Assembly (NCBI GenBank): GCA_947505255.1
Contig: CANNKP010000003.1
Coordinates: 1 to 49,268, forward strand
Reading direction: 5' to 3'
Origin: Flavobacteriales bacterium
Lineage (GTDB): Bacteria > Bacteroidota > Bacteroidia > Flavobacteriales_D > Crocinitomicaceae
DNA: 49,268 bases
Positions 27,199 to 38,724 of the stretch are shown piece by piece. The translations under genes and the position numbers were made by a program. Each line of letters starts with the position of its first letter. The first letter of the stretch is position 1. The notes beneath the pieces are model-generated. The model did no database searches and was not told the origin of the DNA. It worked only from the letters and a program-made list of their open reading frames with translations.

Positions 27199-30100
27199 AT
27201 GATTTTTGAGATTATAAAATTAAAAATATTTAAAAAAAACAGTTCTGAGTTTCAACCTTATTATGAGCGAGAAAATGATTTTAAAAGGCAAGCTTTTGTT
27301 CATGGTTTAGCAGCTTTAATAATTAGTCCTATATATTGTTTTCTTATATATAATACTGAGGTTTCTCCTGTTTATTTTTTTATTAGTTTGTCTTATTCAG
27401 TGATGTATCCTTTTTATGTAACACTCTGTTATTTTATAAAAAGGTTAACAAACAAACTACTCTATTTTTTCGTTTTTCATTTGTTTTTTGTGACATTTAT
27501 TGCATTTCAAGATTTGTTAGCAAATAATTTTGAATTATTTAGTTTATTTTGTTTTTACACGCTTTTTTCTGTTGTGTTATTCGTTGTTCAGCGGCTTTAT
27601 CCAGCTATATTATATAATTCTTTTGTATTGTTTTTATTAATATATGGATTTCAAATTAATGATAATACAGATAATTTAGAGGTTTCTAAATCGGCTATTT
27701 TTGGTTTATTTTTTATTATAGCATTGTGTTCTATTATCGTTTTATCATCTCGACAAAAAATGATTAATAGTGTTGAGGATTATTCAAAATATTTAAAAAA
27801 AATAGTAAATAATCCTGGTGTAGGATTTATATTATTTAAATTTAATTTAAGTTTTCAAAAAGTAATTGATCAAAATAGCGAATCATTTAAAATATTAGAT
27901 TGTACTGAAGAGGAATTAGAATTTATTATTTTATCCAACTTAACAGAAATTGAAAAAAACAAAATATTTTATTTAACACTCGGGGAAAGTTTTAGTAAAA
28001 AAATATGTATTACATATAAATCACCTAAAACAATAGAATTTGAGGTAAGTACTCTTTCTTTGAAAAATGGGTTTTATAAATTATTTCGAATTGTAGATAT
28101 TACAAATAGCGTAATTGAAAAAGAAGAATTATCGAAGAGTTTAACGAAAGATATAAATTTATATAACACAAATTTAGCAGGTGTATTTACAACCGATTTA
28201 TATTCAAAAATAATTGATTGTAACCAGTCATTCATTGAAATTTTTGAAAATGAACTATCATTAGGGAATTTTATTTTTACAGAAAACAGTCAATACGAAT
28301 GGATAGAAATTATAGCGCTAATAAAAAGAAAAGAGCGTCTTAAAAATTATCAAACACAGATTACCTTAAAAAATGGTACAACCAAAAGGTTAGTTTTTAA
28401 TTGGTTTTTTAATAAAAAGGAAAATCAAATAGAAGGTACGATTATAGATATATCTGAAATTCAAAAAGCTACAGACGCTTTGAGTCAAAATGAAGAGAAG
28501 TACAGATTGATTTATGAAGAATCAAATGATGCAATATTATTATTAGATGAGGATAAAATAATTGATGTGAACAGAAAAGGAATTCAATTATTTGGAATTC
28601 CTTATATAGAATTATTAGAAAAAGAATTAGTAGACCTTTCTTTAAACATAGAAGATAAAAACAGGCAGGAATATTTTAAAAACAAGGATATTCTTCAATC
28701 CTTGAAAAATGTTAAATTCAATTGGATTTTTAAGGGTAAAAATGACGCTATAGAAGCAGAAGTTGTAATTATTGAGTTAATGTTGGGTAGAAAAAAGTAT
28801 TACCAATGTGTGATTCATGATTTAACTCAAAGAAATATTAACACCAGAGCGATTGAATCAAACAGAAAAAGTTTTAAATCAATTTTAGATAATACACCTG
28901 AAGGAATTATTATAATAAATGATAATAATGTTTTATATAATAATCCCGAGGCAACTGTTTTACTAGGGACAAGTGAAATTATTTTAGAAAAATTATTTAT
29001 TAAAAATGACCAAAAACATTTTAATCAATTACTAAGCGATCAAAAGTTTAAAAAAGAAATTCAACAAAAGCAATTCAAATTACTAAAAGAGAATGCTCAA
29101 GAACTTTTAGTTGATGTAACGATTGTTACAACCGATTTTGAAGAAGTAGAATCGATTTTAGTTATTTTAAAAGATGTTTCACTTAGGAATGAACTATCGA
29201 AAGAAATTATTCGAGCGGAAATAGCTGAGGAAACGAATAAAAAATTAGAGAAAGAAATTAGAGAAAGAATAAAAACAGAAAAGCTTTTAAAAGAACAAAT
29301 TATTAGAAGTAACGCCATTTTTGATAGTTCTTCCAATACACTATTATTAACATTAGATACAGAATTTAACTTCTCTTCATTTAATACACATTGTCAAAAT
29401 TATTTTAATTATATGACGGATCAGAATATGGAGGTGAATATATCTTTTAATCTGTTCTTTAATAAATTGTTTCAAGAAAAAGAATTACGATTATTTAGAA
29501 AAATACTTAAAAACGTTATTAAAGGGTCTTCTAATCAAATAGAAACAGAATTTATTTCAAAGGGATTAAATAGATGGATAGAATTATTTATAAACCCTAT
29601 TTTTGATATAGAAGGAAAGGTTATTGAAATATCTTTGGTTGCTCATGATATTACCGATAAAAAGAACACAGAAAATCAAATAAAAGATTCCCTTAAAGAA
29701 AAAGAAGTACTCCTTAAAGAAATTCACCATCGGGTAAAAAATAATTTGCAAGTTATTTCAAGTATATTAAATTTACAAAGTTCCTTTGTTACAGATGAAA
29801 AGACACTAGAAATATTAGAAGAAAGCAGAAATAGAATTCATTCCATGGCTACAATTCATGAGAATCTTTATTTAACAACGAATTTTTCTTCTATTGATTT
29901 TGCTAGTTATTTACAAAATCTAACCACAAAACTAATTTCATCTTATCACGTTGCGCCAATAACAATTAATTTAAGAACAGAATTGACTTCAATTAATTTA
30001 TTATTGGATCAAGCAATTCCTTGCGGTCTATTAGTTAATGAATTAATTACAAACGCAATTAAATATGCGTTCATAAATAGGAGTGAAGGAGAAATAGTAA

Positions 30101-30306
30101 TAGGATTAAAAGAAAAGCAAGGAATTATAGAATTAAAAATCGAAGATAATGGTGTTGGTTTACCTCCAAATTTTGAAATATTTAATTCAAACTCACTTGG
30201 ATTACAATTAGTTTCGACTTTAGTAGAACAATTAGACGGAGAAATTAATTTTTCCAACGGAAAAGGAACAAAATATTTGATTACATTTGAAAAGGCTAAA
30301 CCATAA
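27199..30306 (+). CDS. Multi-PAS membrane sensor histidine kinase (HisKA_2/HWE-like)
   Basis: N-terminal TM region, multiple PAS-like segments ([21 protein letters not shown]), [43 protein letters not shown]. Confidence 0.9.
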   Translation: [1035 protein letters not shown]

Positions 30307-30311
30307 ATAAC

Positions 30312-31067
30312 ATGTCTAAAATTAATATACTTGTTGTAGAAGACGAGTCAATCGTTTCTAAAGATATTCAATATAGCCTAAATAAATTAGGCTATAATGT
30401 TGTTGGTGCCGCTTCTTCTGGTGATAAAGCGTTAGAAATAGCCAGAACCGAAAGTCCAGACCTTGTTTTAATGGATATTATGCTTAAAGGCACAATGAAC
30501 GGAATAGAAACTGCGGAAATTATTAAAGCAGAGCTTGCCATACCGATTGTTTTCCTTACAGCTTATGCTGATGAGTCAACCCTATCTAAAGCAAAAATAA
30601 CCGAACCTTATGGTTATATTATTAAACCCTTCAAAGAAATAGACCTTCACACTTCTATTGAAATGGCTATTTATAAGCACGGGAAGGAACAGGAGGTTGT
30701 TAGAGAACGAAACCTGTTATATTCTATTGTTGAGAACAAAGAGTCTTCTAGCGGCTTTATTTTCGTTAAATCTAATAGTAGATTGGTGAAACTTAATACA
30801 AGCGACATTTTTTATATTGAAGCTTTAAAAGATTATGTTGTAATTCATACAATTGATACTCGTTTTACAATTCACTCAACGATGAAAGACATTGAGTTGA
30901 AAATGGGCCCAGCTGAATTTGTTCGAGTTCACCGTTCTTTTATCGTGCGTTTAGATAAAATTGCAACAATAGAATTTCCAAATCTTACGCTCGAAAATGA
31001 TAAAAAAACCATTCCTATTGGTGGGTCTTTTCGTGATGATTTGAATAATAGAATTAAAACGGTTTAA
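30312..31067 (+). CDS. LytTR-type response regulator
   Basis: Receiver ILVVEDESIVSKDIQYSL...LVLMDIML...PIVFLTAYAD...GYIIKPF; LytTR IFYIEALKDYVVIHT...FVRVHRSFIVRLDKI. Confidence 0.93.
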   Translation: MSKINILVVEDESIVSKDIQYSLNKLGYNVVGAASSGDKALEIARTESPDLVLMDIMLKGTMNGIETAEIIKAELAIPIVFLTAYADESTLSKAKITEPYGYIIKPFKEIDLHTSIEMAIYKHGKEQEVVRERNLLYSIVENKESSSGFIFVKSNSRLVKLNTSDIFYIEALKDYVVIHTIDTRFTIHSTMKDIELKMGPAEFVRVHRSFIVRLDKIATIEFPNLTLENDKKTIPIGGSFRDDLNNRIKTV

Positions 31068-33330: not shown

Positions 33331-33852
33331 ATGAACAAGCGTGTAGAACAAGCATTAAACGATCAAATTGAAAAGGAAGCATCTTCATCTCAATTTTATT
33401 TAGCAATGGCCTCTTGGGCCGAAAACAACGGTTTAAACGGAACGGCAAAGTTCATGTATTCTCATTCAGATGAAGAAAGGTTTCACATGTTGAAACTTGT
33501 AAAGTTTGTAAACGAAAGAGGGGGTAAAGCAATAATTCCTAAAATTGGTCAGCCACAAAAAGAATTTAAAGATTTAGTAAATGTTTTTGAATTATTATTG
33601 GCGCACGAAATAATGGTAACAGATAGCATTAATAATTTGGTAGATATTTGTTTACAAGAAAAAGATTATTCGACTCATAATTTTGTTCAATGGTATGTTT
33701 CTGAACAATTAGAAGAAGAAGCCTTAGCGCGAACAGTTTTAGATAAATTAAAATTGATTGGAGGGGATAAAGGAGGAATGTACATGTTTGATAGAGATTT
33801 AGAAAACTCTGCGATACAATTAGCTCCAACAGCCCCTAGCGCAAATAATTAA
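33331..33852 (+). CDS. ftnA: Ferritin (non-heme)
   Basis: LNDQIEKEASSSQFYLAMASWAENNGLNGTAKFMYSHSDEERFHMLKL. Confidence 0.93.
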   Translation: MNKRVEQALNDQIEKEASSSQFYLAMASWAENNGLNGTAKFMYSHSDEERFHMLKLVKFVNERGGKAIIPKIGQPQKEFKDLVNVFELLLAHEIMVTDSINNLVDICLQEKDYSTHNFVQWYVSEQLEEEALARTVLDKLKLIGGDKGGMYMFDRDLENSAIQLAPTAPSANN

Positions 33853-33881: not shown

Positions 33882-36800
33882 ATGAGAATATTTATTCTAA
33901 TAGGACTGCTTGTGTGTTTTTCCCTAAAAGGGACAGGACAAACCGCATACCGATTTAGAAATTACACAATTAATCAAGGCCTTTCTCAAAGCTCTGTTAC
34001 ATGCATTGTTCAAGATAAAAATCACGCCCTTTGGGTTGGAACACAAGATGGATTAAATCGTTTTGATGGTAAGAATTTTGAAGTTTTTACTTCCGATGAT
34101 ACACCAGGAATTGAAAGTGAATATATTAAATGTGCCATCAAAACAAATAACGGAAATTTATGGTTTGGCACAACAAATGGCTTAACTCAATACAATCCGA
34201 ACACAGAGGTATTTGAAACATTTTCATTAGAACAAAAGACCGCTCTACAAATAGAAAGCCTTTGCATTGATCCATCGGGTATTATTTGGGTTGGTACAAA
34301 TGGACGAGGTGTTTTAAGTTTTAACCCCGAAACCCAACAATTCAAACATTACCCGAATCTCATAAACTCTAAAAAAATTCAGGCAGTTTTTTGTGCCGAA
34401 TCAGGAGAGCTTTTTGTTAACACAGAAGATAAAGGTTTGTTTGGCACCAATAAAACCAAAACCAACGCTTTTTTAATACCAATTAAAAACAAGAGCGAAA
34501 ATCCTGTAATAATCCAAAGGATAACTCAAAGTGAATCAGGTAAAATATTATTTGGAAGTAATCAAGGGGTTTTTGAATTTTCGATAGCACAAAATAAAAT
34601 GTATCCGAAGTTTCCTCAATTGGAGTTGGAACATGGTTTTATGGGGGTTGCAGACATTTATTTATCTCAAAACAAAAGTTGGTTTATTGCTACAACAAAT
34701 AAGGGTTTGTTTACAATTGCCCCAGACGGAAGTATTTTTAGCAGCACACAAGATATTTTTCAAAAAAACGCCCTGTTGTTCAATGATATAAATCTTTTGT
34801 TTTGTGATGATTCAGGAACATTTTGGGTTGGCACAGATCGAGGGTTAGCTAGTTTTGACCCAATGAACCAAGGTTTTTTAGGTGTGGGCCCTAGTGGAAA
34901 TTTAGAACAAGGAATTCCAACACCAAACGTTTGGAGCTTTAGTGAAGACAAGAAAGGACTTTTTACATTTATTGGAACAGACATCGGTGTTTCGAGGTTC
35001 AACCGAAAGTCTGGTAAATTCGAACAATTTTATAGAGATAACTCTCAATCTATTACAGGAGAAAGCGCAGAAACGGCAGCCCTTTCTTTATATGTTATTA
35101 ATGAAAACAGAGCGCTTGTTGGCTGTGTAGACGGATTATTTGAATTAAACATTCAATCAAAAACCAATTATTCTTTCAAACGAATTGATTATTTAAAAGA
35201 GGAAGAATCATTAAAACATAATCGAATATATTCAATTGTTCATTGGAAGGATGACCGCTATTTTCTTGGAACGAAGGGCGGGGCTGTGTTGGTTGATTTG
35301 AAAAATAAAAAGGCTCAATCTTTTGAACACTCATTAAAAAACCCAAAAGGAACGATTACATCAGGAGTTTGTCGGCATATTTACAAAGACAATCAGAATA
35401 GAATTTGGTTTGCCTCAAGTTCAGGAGAGCTTAATTTATTATCTGTTAAATCAGAAAAGATAGAAATCGTTCCTTATAAATACAATTCAATTTTATTGAA
35501 AGTGTCAAAAGATTATATTACATCAATCTGTCAGATAAATAAAAATGAATTTTGGCTAGGAACCTTTGGGTCAGGTATAATGCACTGGAACGAAGCAACA
35601 AAAACCGCAAAAATTTATACAAAGAAACAAGGATTACCAAATAACGTTGTGTATGGAATTGTTGAAGACTTTGAAAATAATTTATGGTTAAGCACCAACA
35701 AAGGTATTTGTAGATTTAACCCACGCACAAAAGAGGCAACGAATTATACGGAAGTTGATGGATTAATGAGTAATGAGTTCAATTTAGGGGCTTTTATGAA
35801 ATCAACATCGGGAGAACTTTTTTTTGGGGGTATTTATGGGTATAATTATTTTAATCCAAAGAAACTTTCACTAAACAAACCTAATATTAGCGTCACAATC
35901 ACAAAATTCAAATTAGACAAAAACTGGATAAAACCAGGAGATAAAGATTCACCACTTTTATTACCGATTTCAAGAACGACTCACATTGAATTAAGTTATA
36001 GACAGAGAAGTTTTACCGTTCACTTTCAGCCATCAGATTTGAGTAATCCTGAATTAGTTAATTATAAATATATTTTAGAAGGATCTGATGAAGGAGAGGT
36101 TATTTTAGGATCGTCAAATGAATTAAGGTTTAGTTTATTGTCTCCTGGTGATTATACGTTGAAAATTTATGCTAGAATTGGCGATGGACCTTGGGGTAAT
36201 AGCCCTGCAATTTTAACGTTACATATAAAATCTCCCTTTTGGGCAACATGGTGGTTCTGGGTTATTGTCGCAATTGTTTTAGCAATATCCATACGACTTT
36301 TTGTAAGAAGCCGAATTGATTCCGAGAGGAGAAAGCAAGTTCGTTTAGAAATGAAAATTGCTGATAGAACACGCGAAATAAGAGAACAAAATGTTCAAAT
36401 CGAAAAACAAAGAAAACAACTTGAAGAAGAGAAGAACAAAGTGGTTAATAACCAACTCCTTTTGCAAATAGAGAAGGACAAAACAGAAAAATTAATTCGT
36501 AGAATTATTCCAGAATCTACAGCTGAGGAATTAAAGAACAAAGGAACAGCGAGTGCGCGAGCATACAAAACAGTATCTGTATTATTTACAGATTTTGTTG
36601 GGTTTACTAAAAGTGCAGAGCGCATGAGCCCGACGGATTTAGTGAATAAGTTAGATGTTTATTTCAGTAAATTTGACGAAATAATAGTTAAAAATAATCT
36701 AGAGAAAATAAAGACTATTGGTGACGCATATATGTGCGCTGGGGGTGTGCCTGTGCGAAACAATACAAATCCAATTGACACCTGTATTGCTGCTTTACAG

Positions 36801-37790
36801 ATTCAAGATTACATGCGTATACGTAAAAACAACAGTATTATTAATAACACTGAATATTGGGAATTGCGTTTAGGTATTAATACCGGAGAAGTTGTTGCTG
36901 GTGTTATTGGAAGCGAAAGATTAGCTTATGATGTTTGGGGCGCGACAGTAAACCAGGCGCAACGCATGGAAATGCTCGGTGAACCAGGTAAAGTTACAAT
37001 AACGGGAAATACTTTTGTGCTAGTTGAACCTTATTTTGAGTGTGTTTTCAGGGGAAAAGCACAATCAAAAAGTAGAGGATTGATTGACATGTACACTGTT
37101 GAACGAATCAAGCCAGAGCTTTCTGTGGATGGAGAAGGAGTTGTTCCTAATGAGCGTTTTCAGCAAATTGTAAACCTGCACCTTTATAGTTCTATCAATT
37201 ATTATAAAGCGGAGCGCCACATTGTGAAAGTACTTGAAAAAGGACTTTCTGATAAATTACATTACCACGGAATTGCGCACACCAAAGATGTAGTTAGAGC
37301 GGTTGAGCGTTTAGCTTTGATAGAAGGAGTTACCGATGAGGGCTTGTTTCTTTTAAAATCAGCTGCTACATATCACGATGCTGGATTTGTGGAACAATAT
37401 GATAAGAACGAACCAATTGGCGCACGTTTAGCAGAAGAAATTCTGCCAAAGTATGGTTATACGGAACAACATATCAATACGATTAAAGAACTTATTTATG
37501 TAACCCAGATTCCTCACAAGCCAACCAATAACCTAGAGGAAATTATTTGCGATGCTGATTTGGATTATTTAGGGAGAGATGACTTCCATGAAATTGCTGA
37601 TAGGCTGCGGAGAGAACTTCGTGAACAAGGTAAAATAGACAGTGATCGTAAATGGGACGAGATTCAAGTTCAGTTCCTTACGGCGCATAAATATTTCACC
37701 GCAACGGCTTTGAAAACTAGAGCAGGTAAAAAAGAAAAAAATCTTGAAGAGATAAAGGCAAGATTACTTAAGGATGAATATGTGGATTAG
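33882..37790 (+). CDS. Sensor propeller + Y_Y_Y + TM + class III adenylate cyclase + HD phosphohydrolase fusion
   Basis: Reg_prop repeats (YTINQGLSQSSVTCIVQDKNHALWVGTQDGLNRFDG), TM FWATWWFWVIVAIVLAISIRLFV, cyclase VLFTDFVGFTKSAERM/EKIKTIGDAYMCAGGVP/GEVVAGVIGSERLAYDVWGATVNQAQRMEMLG, HD YHGIAHTKDVVRAVERL...ATYHDAGF...CDADLDYLG. Confidence 0.9.
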   Translation: MRIFILIGLLVCFSLKGTGQTAYRFRNYTINQGLSQSSVTCIVQDKNHALWVGTQDGLNRFDGKNFEVFTSDDTPGIESEYIKCAIKTNNGNLWFGTTNGLTQYNPNTEVFETFSLEQKTALQIESLCIDPSGIIWVGTNGRGVLSFNPETQQFKHYPNLINSKKIQAVFCAESGELFVNTEDKGLFGTNKTKTNAFLIPIKNKSENPVIIQRITQSESGKILFGSNQGVFEFSIAQNKMYPKFPQLELEHGFMGVADIYLSQNKSWFIATTNKGLFTIAPDGSIFSSTQDIFQKNALLFNDINLLFCDDSGTFWVGTDRGLASFDPMNQGFLGVGPSGNLEQGIPTPNVWSFSEDKKGLFTFIGTDIGVSRFNRKSGKFEQFYRDNSQSITGESAETAALSLYVINENRALVGCVDGLFELNIQSKTNYSFKRIDYLKEEESLKHNRIYSIVHWKDDRYFLGTKGGAVLVDLKNKKAQSFEHSLKNPKGTITSGVCRHIYKDNQNRIWFASSSGELNLLSVKSEKIEIVPYKYNSILLKVSKDYITSICQINKNEFWLGTFGSGIMHWNEATKTAKIYTKKQGLPNNVVYGIVEDFENNLWLSTNKGICRFNPRTKEATNYTEVDGLMSNEFNLGAFMKSTSGELFFGGIYGYNYFNPKKLSLNKPNISVTITKFKLDKNWIKPGDKDSPLLLPISRTTHIELSYRQRSFTVHFQPSDLSNPELVNYKYILEGSDEGEVILGSSNELRFSLLSPGDYTLKIYARIGDGPWGNSPAILTLHIKSPFWATWWFWVIVAIVLAISIRLFVRSRIDSERRKQVRLEMKIADRTREIREQNVQIEKQRKQLEEEKNKVVNNQLLLQIEKDKTEKLIRRIIPESTAEELKNKGTASARAYKTVSVLFTDFVGFTKSAERMSPTDLVNKLDVYFSKFDEIIVKNNLEKIKTIGDAYMCAGGVPVRNNTNPIDTCIAALQIQDYMRIRKNNSIINNTEYWELRLGINTGEVVAGVIGSERLAYDVWGATVNQAQRMEMLGEPGKVTITGNTFVLVEPYFECVFRGKAQSKSRGLIDMYTVERIKPELSVDGEGVVPNERFQQIVNLHLYSSINYYKAERHIVKVLEKGLSDKLHYHGIAHTKDVVRAVERLALIEGVTDEGLFLLKSAATYHDAGFVEQYDKNEPIGARLAEEILPKYGYTEQHINTIKELIYVTQIPHKPTNNLEEIICDADLDYLGRDDFHEIADRLRRELREQGKIDSDRKWDEIQVQFLTAHKYFTATALKTRAGKKEKNLEEIKARLLKDEYVD

Positions 37791-37899: not shown

Positions 37900-38724
37900 T
37901 TAGCTAAAAAGTACGCTTTGACCATAAGGAGCAAGATCAACAGGATTCACCACTAACGCTGGAATTTTAGCATCGTTTGTGATGATGTATTGCTCATAAT
38001 TAGCAGTAATAGAACCAAGGAAATTACTTCTATTTAAATTCATGATTGCGATAAGGTCAGCATCAATATTAACAGCATGTTTTACAACTTCTTTGTCAAA
38101 ACCACTGCTTGGAGCTAATGTTGTAGTAACTTCAATACCTCGCTCACTAAAGAATTTATTTGCAAATTGAATATTAGCTTGCACTTGATGACGCAAAAAC
38201 TCATCTGACTCATCAGGTGTTATAACATGAACACGTGATTTGAAATATGTTGCAAGGTTCGCTACAATCGCTAATTTTTGTTTTGTTTCTTTATGAAGGT
38301 CCATTGGCACAACAATGTCATCATAACCAGTAGCTTTAATTCCTTTTTCTTGAACAACAATGAACGGCACGCTCGAATTCGTAATAACTTTTAAAGCATT
38401 ACTTCCTGTGATATGCTGCCAACCATGAGCACCGTGTGTTCCCATAAAAATCAATTCAGCATGATGCTCAGCAGCAAAATCACCAATTTGATCAAAGAAA
38501 TTACCTAAACGCACATAAGATATTAGTTCTACCCCCTCTGTTGCATGAGACTTTAAAACTTCACTTAATTTAGCTTCAGCGTCTTTAATGTCTTTTTCTT
38601 TAGGAACAACATGTAAAACATACACAATTGCGTTTAAAGGTTTTGCAGTTGCAACTGCGTGACTCAAAGCTACATCTGCTACAGGTGTAAAATCGTGAGG
38701 CACAATAAAAGTTTTTTTGTTCAT
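37900..38724 (-). CDS. Tandem universal stress protein (UspA family)
   Basis: IVPHDFTPVADVALSHAVATAK...LIFMGTHGAHGWQHITGSNALKVITNSSVPFIVV; second UspA-like half. Confidence 0.92.
   Translation of the reverse strand: MNKKTFIVPHDFTPVADVALSHAVATAKPLNAIVYVLHVVPKEKDIKDAEAKLSEVLKSHATEGVELISYVRLGNFFDQIGDFAAEHHAELIFMGTHGAHGWQHITGSNALKVITNSSVPFIVVQEKGIKATGYDDIVVPMDLHKETKQKLAIVANLATYFKSRVHVITPDESDEFLRHQVQANIQFANKFFSERGIEVTTTLAPSSGFDKEVVKHAVNIDADLIAIMNLNRSNFLGSITANYEQYIITNDAKIPALVVNPVDLAPYGQSVLFS

Follow-up and report, generated by a model that had tools for sequence, protein, structure and literature searches.

The 1302-aa protein encoded at 33882..37790 on the forward strand of the window (the whole 49,268-nucleotide stretch of Flavobacteriales DNA analysed) is, on the reading that we favour and hold with reasonable though not high confidence, a membrane-anchored bifunctional cyclic-nucleotide enzyme, predicted to combine an adenylate cyclase with an HD-type 3',5'-cyclic nucleotide phosphodiesterase (PDE). 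It is a transmembrane sensor in which a signal peptide, a propeller, a Y_Y_Y domain, a membrane helix, a coiled coil, a class III cyclase and an HD domain follow one another. The two-component-regulator propeller (PF07494, six stretches; Reg_prop 4.5e-31) and the Y_Y_Y domain (PF07495, 1.6e-12, residues 721-783 in Pfam) lie at 33978..36230 (+), and this sensor part is predicted to be extracytoplasmic. The predicted membrane helix, WATWWFWVIVAIVLAISIRLFV, was read from the sequence by eye and has the approximate limits 36240..36330 (+). The catalytic domain of the cyclase is at 36555..37103 (+; PF00211, residues 892-1074, E 1.2e-43), and immediately C-terminal to it is the HD phosphohydrolase domain, a predicted cyclic-nucleotide PDE at 37185..37787 (+; residues ~1102-1302). 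The peptides on which the initial annotation based its proposal of a class I PDE-like domain are all encoded by this ORF, within residues 1102-1302. Upstream of the ORF, at 27199-31067, a PAS histidine kinase (HisKA_2) is paired with a LytTR response regulator.

In the case of the cyclase, alignment to adenylate cyclases 9 and 8 shows both metal aspartates, the lysine of EKIKTIG, the aspartate of YDVWG, and the asparagine and arginine, so that the full class III adenylate cyclase set of two metal Asp, purine Lys/Asp and transition-state Asn/Arg is present. The roles given to these residues (metal binding, adenine recognition and transition-state contacts) are those established for class III cyclases. 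The host draft genome encodes two cNMP-binding proteins of CRP size, and with the adenylate-type residues this makes cAMP the likely product. The cyclase-HD gene has a ferritin-like gene 29 bp upstream (33331..33852, +) and a universal stress protein gene downstream on the opposite strand (37900-38724), found respectively at 15/39 and 16/39 related loci (L065-L103), a hint that the cyclase may be connected with iron or stress.

Chance resemblance can be discounted for the HD domain. In the host family it is present in 99/100 genomes and in 82/82 of those that are near-complete, and there is little or no variation at H1129, H1133, H1165, D1166, E1177, T1208, D1224, D1226, E1245, W1258 and T1273 in 153 members, aligned from four architectures with free-standing copies included. 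By its nearest named relatives the source is Crocinitomicaceae-like. The host family usually has two paralogues, mostly a propeller-cyclase-HD protein of ~1300 aa and a cyclase-HD protein of ~565 aa, and the shorter one in the host's own genome is a receiver-cyclase-HD protein. In a draw across the phylum the domain was found in 143 of about 400 genomes. The H...HD...D metal motif of the HD superfamily (PF01966) is kept, and while the window sequence alone scores 21.0 against the Pfam cut-off of 22 bits, several relatives exceed it, and of the 30 family members in the alignment 29 give a PF01966 match at E <= 0.5. We did consider whether the domain might be a catalytically silent nucleotide-binding regulator that tunes the cyclase, as could be suggested by its fusion to the enzyme that would be regulated and by two cyclase-fused members of the alignment that have lost active-site residues, the HD pair among them. 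Apart from these two, however, the metal and acid residues vary little or not at all, in free-standing copies too, which implies catalysis, and we regard a silent domain as most improbable. The two exceptions are probably the second cyclase-HD copies at L131:9841-11904 and L141:9559-11412, possible pseudo-enzymes that are downstream of an intact copy, are long-branched, and have L or M replacing Q1262.

A few sequences in the collection fall outside the phylum by their labels. HD genes from records titled Kuenenia, Planktophila and Anaerolineae (L069, L073 and L127) are placed inside the Bacteroidota tree, and the records are probably mislabelled or contaminated bins. There is little to suggest a phage gene family, since 1/19 of the pattern matches on viral contigs is a relative. 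A 6.1-kb IMG/VR contig filed as viral (L183), which may be bacterial, carries a GAF-PAS-cyclase-HD protein at 136-2277, and its cyclase matches PycC models far better than does that of the window.

By sequence the closest relatives of the HD family are YpgQ, YedJ and 2PQ7. A single-sequence search of the PDB with the window domain gave no useful relative, but with a 30-member profile 2PQ7, YedJ and Lin1889 came first and class I PDEs followed weakly, over the YHNxxH...HD stretch. In hhalign the HD family matches YpgQ/YedJ-type proteins at Prob 99% and HD-GYP at 96%, both above the PDEs. The two groups share the HD core and a D-A-D motif, but both signature segments of YpgQ/YedJ (GHDWxHIxRV and QDADRLDAIG) differ in our family, which has YHN for GHD and DADL for DADR and is unlike in its C-terminal third, so that it is not a member of that group; a YedJ-type gene occurs separately in the host genome. 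The YpgQ that has been characterised is an NTP pyrophosphohydrolase acting on (d)NTPs (PMC8177086), and the main alternative to our interpretation is thus that the HD domain is a nucleotide pyrophosphohydrolase or phosphatase of this type, forming for example NMP from ATP or (d)NTP, or nucleoside from NMP, and limiting the cyclase's substrate or clearing its product without acting on a cyclic nucleotide. We think this unlikely, although it has the nearest sequence family on its side, as the differences at key sites are in the direction of the PDEs and generic YpgQ-like genes in the Bacteroidota sample have no association with cyclases (0/20).

The comparison with class I PDEs has to be put with some care. 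The order of motifs YHNxxHxxDV, HD, ATxxP and (D)ADL is truly conserved in the family, in support of the initial annotation; the consensus YHNxxHTxDV appears in the window as YHGIAHTKDV, with the acid and metal histidines of the PDE feature both present. However the AxxxHDvdH motif cited in the initial annotation does not hold, as the HDxxH histidine is missing: the family has HDxG[FY] in its place (HDAGF in the window, with G1168 invariant in the 153 members), whereas all five human PDEs compared (PDE4D, 5A, 7A, 9A and 2A) have HDxDH. The PDE profile PF00233 exceeded its curated cut-off in 0/198 Bacteroidota genomes, the best HD-family member having 22.1 against 24.8 bits over the N-terminal 70 positions only, and with the absence of the HDxxH histidine this leaves membership of class I unsupported. 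The top sub-threshold matches to PF00233 are this family and dGTPase-like HD proteins, and because the latter have the same resemblance at the same positions, the YHxxxH...HD motif alone was rejected as proof of a class I PDE.

A confident AF2 model of the domain (pLDDT 97.1) was used for a Foldseek search, a check that the initial annotation had proposed. Against the PDB a generic HD hydrolase (2PQ7) is first at 2.3e-4, but ranks 2-50 are essentially all class I PDEs (PDE4 and one PDE5; E 9e-4 to 5e-3, TMq 0.53-0.63). PDE4 is over-represented in the PDB, and for that reason the host's own YedJ-type gene was modelled likewise as a generic HD control: it recovers the YpgQ family at ~1e-11, and PDE4 does not come up until 2e-2, interspersed with cyanamide hydratase, GlyRS and HD-GYP. 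For hhalign we used five human PDE catalytic domains, with sequences compared with PDB chains (the PDE7A query differs from 1ZKL at one residue), and the HD family scores 45 local and 42 global (Prob 86 and 92%, 158 columns in the local alignment), against maxima of 23 and 9 in 100 column shuffles, while YedJ-type, HD-GYP and dGTPase-like HD proteins all have Prob <= 13% to the same PDEs.

Unguided, this alignment places the YHGIAHTKDV segment (37263..37292, +) so that H1129 pairs with H160, the general acid of PDE4D, and H1133 with the metal ligand H164; the H1165-D1166 pair (37374..37379, +) falls on H200-D201 and the near-invariant E1177 (37410..37412, +) on E230. It also pairs T1208 of ATxxP (37503..37505, +) with T271, D1226, the last metal aspartate in D1224-A-D1226 (37551..37559, +), with D318, and Q1262 and F1265 of the QxxF segment (37665..37676, +) with the purine glutamine Q369 and with F372, but the register of these four depends on the N-terminal anchor, since the C-terminal half of the domain aligned alone to the PDEs is not significant. 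The class I likeness originally proposed thus stands as to motif order, Foldseek and the generic control, and falls short as to PF00233, the HDxxH histidine and the higher scores of generic HD profiles. The fold core and the order of YHNxxHxxDV, HD, ATxx, ADL and, on the unguided alignment, QxxF are held in common with PDE4, PDE5 and PDE9, but those enzymes have the HDxxH histidine and ~330 residues, where our family has ~200 and is below the PF00233 cut-off. The domain is thus not a class I PDE by definition, but appears to lie far nearer to that class than an ordinary HD hydrolase does.

The strongest evidence for a role with cyclic nucleotides is genomic context. Among the best 80 loci from named genomes the HD domain is fused to a cyclase in 54/80, with 11 more having a cyclase in a separate ORF within 6 kb, and some also having a YitT-type membrane protein. 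That set is biased towards the query, and we therefore sampled 68 loci from the phylum-wide draw. There the fusions are to PycTM (PF18967) in 21, to YitT in 3 and to a cyclase in 1; 17/68 have a cyclase in the same protein or no more than 5 kb away. With PycTM and cNMP-binding domains counted as well as cyclases the figure is 39/68, and the other 29/68 have no cyclic-nucleotide partner. The same partners were found at 0/20 generic YedJ-type HD loci (Fisher 1e-6 for any partner, 0.01 for cyclase alone), and the chance expectation of a cyclase nearby, from 2.4 cyclase genes per genome, is <1%. On the tree the cyclase-fusion label changes at least 4 times on starred branches, a count of modest weight given the quick tree method. 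These changes and the operons support a coupling of the domain to class III cyclases.

The same partners bear on the suggestion that the HD domain hydrolyses another second messenger, such as c-di-GMP, c-di-AMP or ppGpp, and so joins two signalling systems. HD-GYP is after all the second-best profile match, and the PycTM branch is found near ppk1 and sixA. However what recurs beside the domain is mononucleotide cyclases and cNMP receptors, and the GYP motif is absent from the sequence, as was noted at the outset, so that we give this suggestion very little credence. Family searches of the host genome gave no match to the HD-GYP domain HD_5 (PF13487) reaching E 1e-10.

Several of the neighbourhoods are worth recording. 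HD-PycTM genes (for example in L185, L199 and L207) recur beside a sixA-like histidine phosphatase, ppk1 and a large metallophosphatase protein, and at L222:2229-5600 a TPR-type cyclase, a PycTM effector and an HD gene are consecutive, a possible three-gene Pycsar-like operon. The HD domain is joined to or lies beside a YitT-family 5-TM protein in L041 (as YitT + DUF2179), L048, L053 and L119, and has one as a neighbour in L037, L118, L124, L126, L143 and L144, often downstream of cyclases; this makes the YitT-type protein a candidate for a membrane component linked to cyclic nucleotides. At L121:6614-7891, L138:4263-5951 and L142:6560-7015 free-standing HD genes adjoin cNMP-binding-domain proteins, in which that domain is fused to a SpoIIE phosphatase or a histidine kinase, or is alone.

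With regard to substrate, there is a hint in position 1262, equivalent to the PDE purine glutamine known as the ‘glutamine switch’ (PMC8177086). Cyclase-fused members have Q there in 55/59 cases and YitT-fused members in 4/4, while the 23/23 fused to PycTM carry N, T, S or D. This could mean that Q1262-type members act on cAMP and the PycTM-linked N/T/S type on cUMP, cCMP or another signal, and Pycsar effectors do respond to cyclic pyrimidines (PMC11224242), and the cyclase-PycTM-HD row in L222 also speaks for it. However the split lies along essentially a single deep branch and so counts as about one evolutionary event, and a cyclase is missing from the neighbourhood of many PycTM-fused HD genes; we think such a division of substrates quite improbable. 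A broader proposal is that the family is a previously unnamed, Bacteroidota-wide group of compact, class-I-PDE-like HD phosphodiesterases which, built in or encoded in the operon, switch off class III cyclases and Pycsar-like PycTM effectors, its purine and pyrimidine branches being marked by Q as against N/T/S. This is somewhat less doubtful, but we offer it only tentatively. For the HD domain of the window protein the substrate is probably cAMP.

The architecture, the conserved residues, the fold and the recurring cyclase or receptor partners are observed, and catalysis, substrate and direction of regulation are inferred from them. In the mechanism so proposed the propeller/Y_Y_Y sensor would face the periplasm and, through the membrane helix and coiled coil, drive dimerisation of the class III adenylate cyclase and formation of cAMP. 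The compact (~200 aa), class-I-PDE-like, metal-dependent HD domain would convert cAMP to 5'-AMP, with the metal or metals held by H1133, H1165, D1166 and D1226, H1129 as general acid, and the purine gripped by Q1262 and F1265. With synthesis and hydrolysis in one chain, the local cAMP level would thus be set by that chain, and the sensor (or the receiver in the paralogue) probably tilts the balance of the two activities, as in GGDEF-EAL proteins or plant CAPE. Since the cyclase probably makes cAMP and the HD domain probably destroys it, a single chain may hold both on and off switch; a switch regulated in both directions and a futile cycle are equally compatible with the data.

According to one paper, class I cyclic-nucleotide PDEs are known from eukaryotes, and class III comprises the bacterial ones (PMC8115329). 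If the HD domain does hydrolyse cAMP it would be a bacterial counterpart of class I, fused to its own cyclase, might serve to switch cAMP signalling off in Bacteroidota, and would bear on the relation of class I PDEs to the YpgQ-like HD hydrolases. That the family recurs beside PycTM effectors suggests a connection, open to experiment, between Pycsar-like systems and the turnover of cyclic nucleotides. A literature search of incomplete coverage found neither a bacterial fusion of adenylate cyclase to HD nor a name for the HD family. The adenylate cyclase-PDE fusion is itself known already, and what would be new is a compact, class-I-like bacterial HD domain in such a fusion.

With regard to known systems, there is a likeness to Pycsar (PycC cyclase and PycTM effector) in that PycTM effectors and class III cyclases are the fusion partners or neighbours of HD relatives, but the window protein has no PycTM and carries a propeller-type adenylate cyclase. 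We rejected the window system as a Pycsar system: in a search of a defence library its cyclase is weakly PycC-like, and the HD gene of L222 had no match. Among the papers found, none describes an HD enzyme as a Pycsar component. In the YpgQ direction, the plant YpgQ-like HD protein BDPDE1 is reported to be a PDE that hydrolyses both cAMP and cGMP (PMC8431786).

The known precedent for the architecture is plant CAPE, such as MpCAPE of the liverwort Marchantia, where one chain carries a class-I-type HD PDE together with a class III adenylate cyclase and both activities have been shown (PMC5159850, PMC8115329). This dual activity, together with the YpgQ-like cAMP/cGMP PDE, means that both affiliations of our HD domain allow cAMP hydrolysis. 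The window protein has, from its sequence, the CAPE-type arrangement of class III cyclase and PDE-like domain in a single chain. However CAPE is eukaryotic, with an N-terminal PDE of class I, whereas the window protein is bacterial and has the opposite order; its HD domain is compact and scores below the PF00233 cut-off, and the input comes from a predicted periplasmic propeller or, in the paralogue, a receiver.
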